DNA of 64,000 nucleotides from Stakelama flava. GTDB lineage: Bacteria; Pseudomonadota; Alphaproteobacteria; Sphingomonadales; Sphingomonadaceae. Location: contig NZ_JAHWZX010000006.1 in the NCBI RefSeq assembly GCF_019351405.1, forward strand, positions 1 to 64,000, read 5' to 3'. Positions 9,298-10,887 of the stretch are shown here, piece by piece. Both the position numbers and the translations under genes were made by a program. Numbering within the stretch: position 1 is the stretch's first letter; each line of letters starts with the position of its first letter. Below the pieces are notes generated by a model, which was not told the origin of the DNA, did not search any database, and saw only the letters and a list, made by a program, of their open reading frames with translations.

Positions 9298-10887
9298 TTA
9301 AGCCGCTGCCTTCCTTCTTTCCGCCATTTCCGCGTTGAGCATTTCGGCCAGCAGGAACGCCAGTTCGATGCTCTGGCTGGCGTTCAGGCGGGGGTCGCAA
9401 TGGGTGTGGTAGCGGTCGGCCAGCCCGGCTTCGGTGACGGCCACGGCGCCGCCGGTGCACTCCGTCACATTCTGGCCGGTCATTTCGGCGTGGATGCCGC
9501 CGGCATAGGTGCCTTCGGCGCGGTGGACGGCGAAGAAGCTGCGCACTTCGGACAGGATGCGGTCGAAGGGGCGTGTTTTGAAGCCGTTGGCGGCCTTTAT
9601 GACGTTGCCGTGCATCGGATCGCAGCTCCATACGACGGGATGGCCCTCGCGCTTTACCGCCCGGACCAAAGCGGGCAGGCCGTCCTCGATCTTCTCATGA
9701 CCGTAGCGGGTGATGAGCGTCATCCGACCGGGCACGCGCGCCGGGTTCAGCGTATCGAGCAGGCGGATGAGCGCGTCGGGTTCAAGCGAAGGCCCGCATT
9801 TCATGCCGATCGGGTTTTCGATGCCGCGCAGGAATTCGACATGCGCCGACCCTTCGAACCGCGTGCGGTCGCCGATCCACAACATGTGCGCCGATGTGTC
9901 GTACCAGTCGCCGGTCAGGCTGTCCTGCCGGGTGAGCGCCTGTTCATAGGGGAGCAGCAGCGCTTCATGGCTGGTGTAGAATTGCGTCGCCTTTAGCTGT
10001 GGCACGCTGTCGGCGTCGATGCCGCAAGCGGCCATGAAGTCGAGCGCTTCGCCGATGCGATCGGCCATTTCACCATATTTCTTGGCCCAGGGGCTGCGGC
10101 CCATGAATTCGTGCGTCCATTGGTGGACCTGATGCAGATTGGCATAGCCGCCCTGCGCAAAGGCGCGCAGCAGGTTCAGCGTCGCTGCCGACTGGCTATA
10201 GGCGCGAAGCATCCGCTGCGGATCGGGGATGCGGCCTTCGGGGGTGAAGGCGCTGTCGTTGATGATGTCGCCGCGATAGCTGGGCAGTTCGACGCCGTCC
10301 TGGGTTTCGGTGTTGGCGGAACGCGGCTTTGCGAACTGGCCCGCCATGCGCCCGACCTTCACCGTGGGCAGTTTGGAGGCATAGGTGAGGACGACCGCCA
10401 TTTGCAGGATCACGCGGAAGGTGTCGCGGATATTGTTCGGGTGGAACTCGGCAAAACTTTCGGCGCAATCGCCACCCTGAAGCAGAAACGCTTTTCCGGC
10501 CGCGACCTGCGCGAGGTCGTCGGTGAGGTTTCGCGCTTCGCCGGCAAAGACGAGCGGCGGGTGGCGGGTGAGCTGATCGGTGGCGTCGGTCAGCGCCTCG
10601 ACGTCGGGATAGTCGGGAAGCTGGCGCGCCTCGGCCGATTGCCAGCTTGTCGGCGACCATTGCGCGCGCTCCGGCGCGGCGTCGGCGAGCTGGACATACC
10701 AGTCGGCATGATGCGCGATGCCGTTCGCCGCGATCTGGTTCACGACCTTCGCACTGGCGCGCTTGCCATGTTCTTCCCAGCCCTGAACCGTGCTGCCGGG
10801 CGTATCGAACCACGCGCCGAACGCCGCGCGAGTGATGGCGCGCTCTTCACGGAACCGGCGGATTTTTGAGCCTGCTAATGTCGTCAT
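9298..10887 (-). CDS. class II DAHP synthase with N-terminal Xre-like HTH domain
   Basis: A 529-residue protein. Residues from about 76 onward are a complete class II (plant-like) 3-deoxy-D-arabino-heptulosonate-7-phosphate synthase, which joins phosphoenolpyruvate and erythrose-4-phosphate in the first step of the shikimate pathway: LLQGGDCAESFAEFHP, GRMAGQFAKPRS, IGMKCGPS and THCDPRLNASQS are intact, with the metal-binding Cys, His, Glu and Asp. Free-standing enzymes of this class are about 450-470 residues. The extra 75 residues contain a helix-turn-helix pattern (SKIRRFREERAITRAAF, then STVQGWEE) like Cro/Xre DNA-binding domains. No in-frame ATG exists between the two parts, so the enzyme appears to be made only as the fusion. 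A TTACCC/GGGTAA palindrome sits just upstream. The DNA-binding role is inference. Confidence 0.9.
   Translation of the reverse strand: MTTLAGSKIRRFREERAITRAAFGAWFDTPGSTVQGWEEHGKRASAKVVNQIAANGIAHHADWYVQLADAAPERAQWSPTSWQSAEARQLPDYPDVEALTDATDQLTRHPPLVFAGEARNLTDDLAQVAAGKAFLLQGGDCAESFAEFHPNNIRDTFRVILQMAVVLTYASKLPTVKVGRMAGQFAKPRSANTETQDGVELPSYRGDIINDSAFTPEGRIPDPQRMLRAYSQSAATLNLLRAFAQGGYANLHQVHQWTHEFMGRSPWAKKYGEMADRIGEALDFMAACGIDADSVPQLKATQFYTSHEALLLPYEQALTRQDSLTGDWYDTSAHMLWIGDRTRFEGSAHVEFLRGIENPIGMKCGPSLEPDALIRLLDTLNPARVPGRMTLITRYGHEKIEDGLPALVRAVKREGHPVVWSCDPMHGNVIKAANGFKTRPFDRILSEVRSFFAVHRAEGTYAGGIHAEMTGQNVTECTGGAVAVTEAGLADRYHTHCDPRLNASQSIELAFLLAEMLNAEMAERRKAAA

Follow-up and report, generated by a model that had tools for sequence, protein, structure and literature searches.

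Why should the enzyme that opens the shikimate pathway begin with what looks like a DNA-binding domain? The question is raised by a gene of Stakelama flava (Sphingomonadaceae) that lies within the first 64,000 nucleotides of contig NZ_JAHWZX010000006.1 (NCBI RefSeq assembly GCF_019351405.1, positions 1 to 64,000 of the forward strand), a stretch that we refer to as the window. An earlier, sequence-only reading had described this gene as a class II 3-deoxy-D-arabino-heptulosonate 7-phosphate (DAHP) synthase with an extra N-terminal helix-turn-helix (HTH) domain, and had raised the possibility that the protein binds DNA and so regulates its own gene or others. Comparison with related loci and genomes points to a specific answer: the HTH domain likely binds a palindrome, TTACCC-N5-GGGTAA, just before its own start codon and likely represses its own DAHP synthase gene. 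The parts of the protein are as follows.

9298..10887, minus strand: fusion gene, HTH domain plus class II DAHP synthase (open reading frame (ORF) and translation; Pfam, NCBIfam).
10696..10887, minus strand: HTH domain, residues 1-64 (HTH_31 below its cut-off; AlphaFold2; ratio of nonsynonymous to synonymous substitution rates (dN/dS); fused in 66 of 66 matches).
10768..10797, minus strand: predicted recognition helix, residues 31-40, GSTVQGWEEH (AlphaFold2 helix 31-40; conservation).
10660..10695, minus strand: variable linker, residues 65-76 (dN/dS, identity, low model confidence).
9346..10659, minus strand: class II DAHP synthase catalytic part, residues 77-514 (PF01474; best match 5UXM).

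Upstream of the start codon lie two further elements.

10897..10913, minus strand: candidate operator, the palindrome TTACCC-TGATC-GGGTAA (only site with at most one mismatch in the genome; comparison of fused and unfused genes).
10918..10923, minus strand: TTGCAC, a -35-like element whose TTG begins 10 bases before the palindrome.

The palindrome ends nine bases 5' of the fusion ATG and is the sole perfect match in the window; when as many as two mismatches are allowed, the window holds two. Shuffled versions of the window gave a mean of 0.54 such matches, and 10 of 100 shuffles reached two, so the single site by itself proves nothing. The comparison covered the best 80 of 589 confirmed relatives, of which 32 are fused and 48 unfused, giving 33 fused genes with that of the window. 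At two mismatches or fewer, the palindrome was present before all 33 fused genes (24 perfect copies, 6 with one mismatch and 3 with two), always beginning 29 to 26 bases 5' of the ATG, and before none of the 48 unfused genes, where the best copy within 500 nt, in a stretch that does not depend on the start assigned to the gene, had 3-5 mismatches. Among shuffled upstream regions, 24 of 6600 attained two mismatches or fewer. The arms are almost invariant in the fused loci while spacer and flanks vary, and in 32 of 33 loci a TTG begins 9-10 bases ahead of it; a scan with the sigma-70 consensus found no promoter at the TTGCAC region. Neighbouring genes are not shared: none of the 80 loci from relatives has the divergent M1 peptidase or the copper genes of the window. 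By comparison, a putative operator would sit at the promoter of the fusion's own gene.

Many fused loci carry a second copy of the palindrome at up to two mismatches, 33-36 bases upstream of the first in 18 of 33 and 24 bases upstream in 3 of 33. The window locus has no second copy at that threshold. A lone half-site, GGGTAA, is found there at 10949-10954 on the minus strand, 36 bases upstream of the palindrome. At the same place Stakelama pacifica has a two-mismatch copy (start -78), and the half-site of the window may be a decayed distal copy.

Genome-wide, perfect sites were confined to fused genomes: 17 of 18 contain them, 22 sites in all, which count and position place at the promoter of DAHP synthase without exception, and 16 unfused genomes contain none. 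The remaining fused genome (G014) has a one-mismatch site at that promoter instead. In the window genome (3.39 Mb) exactly one site was found at one mismatch or fewer, that of the gene's own promoter; among three other fused genomes searched at this threshold, two (G001 and G007) have one extra one-mismatch site each. A wider regulon was considered and found no support, since sites at up to two mismatches are fewer than those of a reversed control pattern both in the window genome (30 versus 79) and in G001 (42 versus 94), and we see no sign in these sequences of other targets for the fusion protein. Of the regulatory role first proposed, control of the protein's own gene has gained strong comparative support, whereas control of other genes has not.

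Is the N-terminus an HTH domain at all? The Pfam family HTH_31 matches residues 6-53 at 23.8 bits, under its curated gathering cut-off of 27; the same family is matched at E <= 1 by all 25 fused proteins whose N-termini were searched, that of the window included. The best AlphaFold2 model of residues 1-75 has helices at 4-15, 20-26, 31-40, 46-54 and 60-64, the five-helix fold of Xre/Cro proteins, and the mean predicted local distance difference test scores (pLDDT) of the five models were 88.1, 87.9, 84.9, 66.5 and 53.4. Structural matches of the predicted domain include HppE and the controller proteins C.AhdI and C.Esp1396I; a sequence search of the PDB with the HTH profile matched nothing meaningful. 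Within the predicted recognition helix, G31, T33, Q35, G36, W37 and E38 are invariant across 25 aligned sequences. The full-length model has a mean pLDDT of 62, with residues 67-90 below 50, and the placement of the HTH domain on the enzyme in that model was for this reason left unused.

The domain is also kept, and kept where it is. All 66 database proteins that match residues 1-80 (of 158 candidates, the window's own included) carry a DAHP synthase domain, so the fusion is not a chance event; the sources named for them are Stakelama, Sphingomonas, Sphingomonadales or 'Alphaproteobacteria bacterium'. Across the 33 fused genes, median dN/dS was 0.148 in the HTH domain and 0.641 in the linker, then 0.282 over residues 77-135 and 0.118 in the core (528 pairs, of which those with a proportion of synonymous differences of 0.05-0.7 were counted: 502, 391, 526 and 528, respectively). 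The linker has a mean identity of 44%, and the HTH domain is under purifying selection. Two database records stood out by their titles: the DAHP synthase of a record named Microvirga sp. SRT01 groups among those of Sphingomonas in our tree, and part of the fused HTH turns up in a record named Bacillus sp. VT-16-64. Mislabelling or contamination of the two assemblies is the apparent cause.

The catalytic part is a class II DAHP synthase by family score. The ORF encodes 529 amino acids from an ATG on the minus strand; Pfam DAHP_synth_2 (PF01474) covers residues 77-514 (E 1.4e-208, 693.2 bits, cut-off 27) and NCBIfam TIGR01358 residues 77-519 (706.6 bits, cut-off 614.7), and besides HTH_31 no further Pfam family was found in the protein at E <= 10. 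The fusion described earlier is confirmed, and it is conserved. By sequence and by model, the closest solved enzyme is PA2843 of P. aeruginosa (5UXM), whose sequence aligns with fusion residues 75-518 (E 8.6e-198). The alpha2a/alpha2b insert that shapes the tryptophan site of type IIA enzymes is present by this alignment, which is gapless over query residues 75-291, nearly the whole insert (PA2843 residues 179-225), and has a two-residue gap at about 292-293 that touches its end. As the genome encodes a single class II DAHP synthase and its sole class I-type match is KDO8P synthase, the fusion is the only entry enzyme detected. It had been suggested that the fusion is the only product of the gene, there being no ATG between its parts. 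The window gene agrees with this: no in-frame ATG occurs from residue 1 to the catalytic part, and the sole ATG, GTG or TTG codon is a GTG at residue 49. For its relatives it cannot be assumed, because 28 of the 33 fused genes (among L003-L032, the window gene not being one of them) have an in-frame ATG at residue 73 or 74, and some of them may also make an HTH-free enzyme from it.

A second enzyme repeats the pattern. The domain profile matched 71 of 396 genomes of the order, 23 belonging to the genus of the window (ORFs of 531-596 amino acids) and 48 to other genera of the family (ORFs of 768-1050 amino acids); these scans scored 14-29 candidates per genome, so that other fusions can have been missed. 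The longer ORFs appear to be glutamine-dependent NAD+ synthetases (NadE), an identity that draws on 14 N-terminal sequences read among these 48, two Pfam scans (CN_hydrolase and NAD_synthase in both, HTH_31 in one) and one NCBIfam scan (NAD(+) synthase NF002730, 1036 bits). Residues 1-75 of one NadE fusion match 147 database proteins, and CN_hydrolase is present in all 120 among the matches listed. The HTH domains of this type share 36-46% identity with that of the window.

L133-L143, L146-L148 and others, in other Sphingomonadaceae: NadE-fused loci with their own palindrome before the start codon.

From 51 such loci we obtained 36 distinct upstream regions, and all 36 contain GTATCC-N5-GGATAC (32 perfect, 4 with one mismatch), beginning 29 to 21 bases 5' of the ATG. 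In 25 unfused nadE genes the best copy within 250 nt has 3-6 mismatches. The two palindromes do not mix: none of the 36 NadE-fused upstream regions has the DAHP-type one (3-5 mismatches), and the NadE-type one is missing from all 6 DAHP-fused genomes searched. Perfect NadE-type sites occur in 25 of 28 NadE-fused genomes and in 0 of 20 others, and 24 of the 31 sites lie at nadE. The other 7, second sites in 7 genomes, lie inside ORFs, five in tldD-like genes (two were tested and match PmbA/TldD), a sixth in a circularly permuted ATP-grasp gene (G817) and the seventh in G251; the first six seem to be coding coincidences and were rejected as targets. Scanning 385 Alphaproteobacteria genomes for other fusions, with candidates per genome likewise within 14-29, gave 9 matches, and the five outside the family were weak (24-27 bits) and were rejected as enzyme fusions, since by eye they resemble phage-type repressors and one membrane protein. 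The HTH domain with its operator is probably a portable unit of autorepression, judging from these two sets of loci.

The case for autorepression is built on the constant position of the site, its occurrence only with the fusion, the unshared neighbours, the predicted fold and the selection on the domain, and our confidence is high mainly because a second gene shows the same association with a changed sequence. Mechanistically, the subunits of the oligomeric enzyme would pair two HTH domains, one per half-site, and the bound protein would cover the stretch from the TTG element to the start codon, where the transcript would begin near the ATG, and so block RNA polymerase. The amount of enzyme would thereby set its own synthesis. 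A weaker step, proposed by analogy with the tryptophan-inhibited PA2843, is that tryptophan at the type IIA allosteric site would alter the geometry of the HTH domains, which would couple feedback on activity with feedback on expression.

Three other explanations deserve weighing, and the one that survives best is that the fused protein does bind the palindrome but mainly activates its gene, or turns from activator into repressor depending on how much of it is present. The controller proteins of restriction-modification systems behave in this way, two of them (C.AhdI and C.Esp1396I) are among the structural matches, and the second copy that 18 of 33 loci carry 33-36 bases upstream would suit such a switch. 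Yet no second copy stands at this distance in 15 of 33 loci, the window's included, and the site that is conserved falls in the interval from the TTG element to the ATG, so we regard this reading as unlikely. It is rather improbable, too, that the HTH-like domain serves the enzyme's structure or its contacts with other proteins, with the palindrome being an operator for some separate regulator. In HppE, another structural match, the HTH-like domain is regarded as having such a role, and the HTH_31 score under its cut-off fits as well; against this, the palindrome accompanies the domain in 33 of 33 genes and is missing in 48 of 48 without it, the second enzyme repeats the pattern with a different palindrome, and a single-target regulator confined to these genomes would be needed twice. 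That the palindrome is an RNA hairpin controlling translation, linked to the fusion by shared descent only, we consider very remote: it is an inverted repeat that immediately precedes the ATG, and all fused genes may belong to one clade, but 8 of the 9 imperfect copies are altered in one arm alone, so that sequence and not pairing is kept, a second copy lies further upstream in 21 of 33 loci, the region matches no Rfam family, and the NadE fusion has the same arrangement with another sequence.

How could autorepression by an enzyme have arisen? Unfused enzymes start at about residue 73-74 of the fused ones (e.g. MAANWAPDSW), and the ATG that survives at this old start in most fused genes suggests that a small regulator gene may have been set in front, as if it had arrived with its operator. 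A quick tree of the catalytic domain (80 of 81 rows, L067 left out) requires three changes of fusion status, a single fused clade is not rejected (approximately unbiased test, p-AU 0.288), and an independent-pairs test on it, with 1 to 3 pairs, has no power. Of 14 candidate stand-alone homologues close to the domain in the protein database, 13 match, and 10 of the 11 with a size given lie on sequences shorter than 3 kb, so most are probably fragments. Two more distant stand-alone genes were found in genomes.

L219:5005-5211, minus strand: stand-alone HTH relative directly before a primase-like gene.
L218:4480-4698, plus strand: stand-alone HTH relative directly before a primase-like gene.

Their genomes are G308 and G827; both primase-like genes have DUF7146 and Toprim and one has CHC2, and a palindrome-like TGTCCC-TGTGA-GGGATA precedes the G308 copy. 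Such an arrangement is typical of mobile elements; from these two cases, an origin of the domain in mobile elements is a guess. We lean, somewhat, towards a history in which a promoter-operator-HTH cassette, perhaps from mobile-element regulators before primase genes, was joined at least twice to unrelated biosynthetic genes, those of DAHP synthase and NAD+ synthetase, with each enzyme becoming the dedicated repressor of its own gene, recognition re-tuned in each lineage and the allosteric state possibly setting repression.

Immediately past the 3' end of the fusion gene and on the opposite strand, the window holds genes for a multicopper oxidase and, after it, CopB (6422-9282; Pfam).

Entry into the shikimate pathway is gated by DAHP synthase, a frequent target in the engineering of aromatic production. 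If our reading is true, a group of sphingomonads controls this gate with one protein that is enzyme, repressor and possibly sensor; the control unit is small, apparently has a single target and is found also on NAD+ synthetase, offering a natural example and possibly a ready part for building autoregulated enzymes, and pathway regulation in these bacteria becomes directly testable. It also suggests a route from enzyme to transcription factor, in which a small regulator gene comes to lie, with its operator, ahead of an old start codon.

With a catalytic domain by family score and a DNA-binding domain by predicted fold in one chain, the protein resembles the enzyme-repressors known as trigger enzymes. 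NadR and BirA likewise join an enzyme and a DNA-binding domain in one chain and control a biosynthetic pathway and genes beyond their own; they differ from the fusion in their enzymes, in their DNA-binding domains and in regulating other genes. Xre/Cro-type repressors such as P22 c2 stand alone, unlike the fusion's domain, which is joined to an enzyme and scores under the HTH_31 cut-off. Enzyme-repressors are a known kind; among the titles and abstract openings of the open-access papers listed in our searches, neither a DAHP synthase nor a NAD+ synthetase version was described. PA2843, described in the cited paper as a homotetramer inhibited by tryptophan (PMC6435475), belongs to the same catalytic family as fusion residues 75-518 but has only the usual N-terminal extension of that family, aligning from fusion residue 75, and no HTH. 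PutA, in its trifunctional form a proline dehydrogenase/P5C dehydrogenase, is described as repressing its own regulon through an N-terminal DNA-binding domain of the ribbon-helix-helix type, as catabolic, and as relocating to the membrane (PMC5293562). Like the fusion, it unites a metabolic enzyme and an N-terminal DNA-binding domain (predicted in the fusion) in one chain; the fusion differs in its predicted HTH, its biosynthetic enzyme and its own promoter as the only site at one mismatch or fewer in the window genome. Ribbon-helix-helix and proline-oxidising domains are both missing from the fusion, whose HTH is predicted to have five helices and is followed by a DAHP synthase domain. PutA is not its relative but its closest working parallel.
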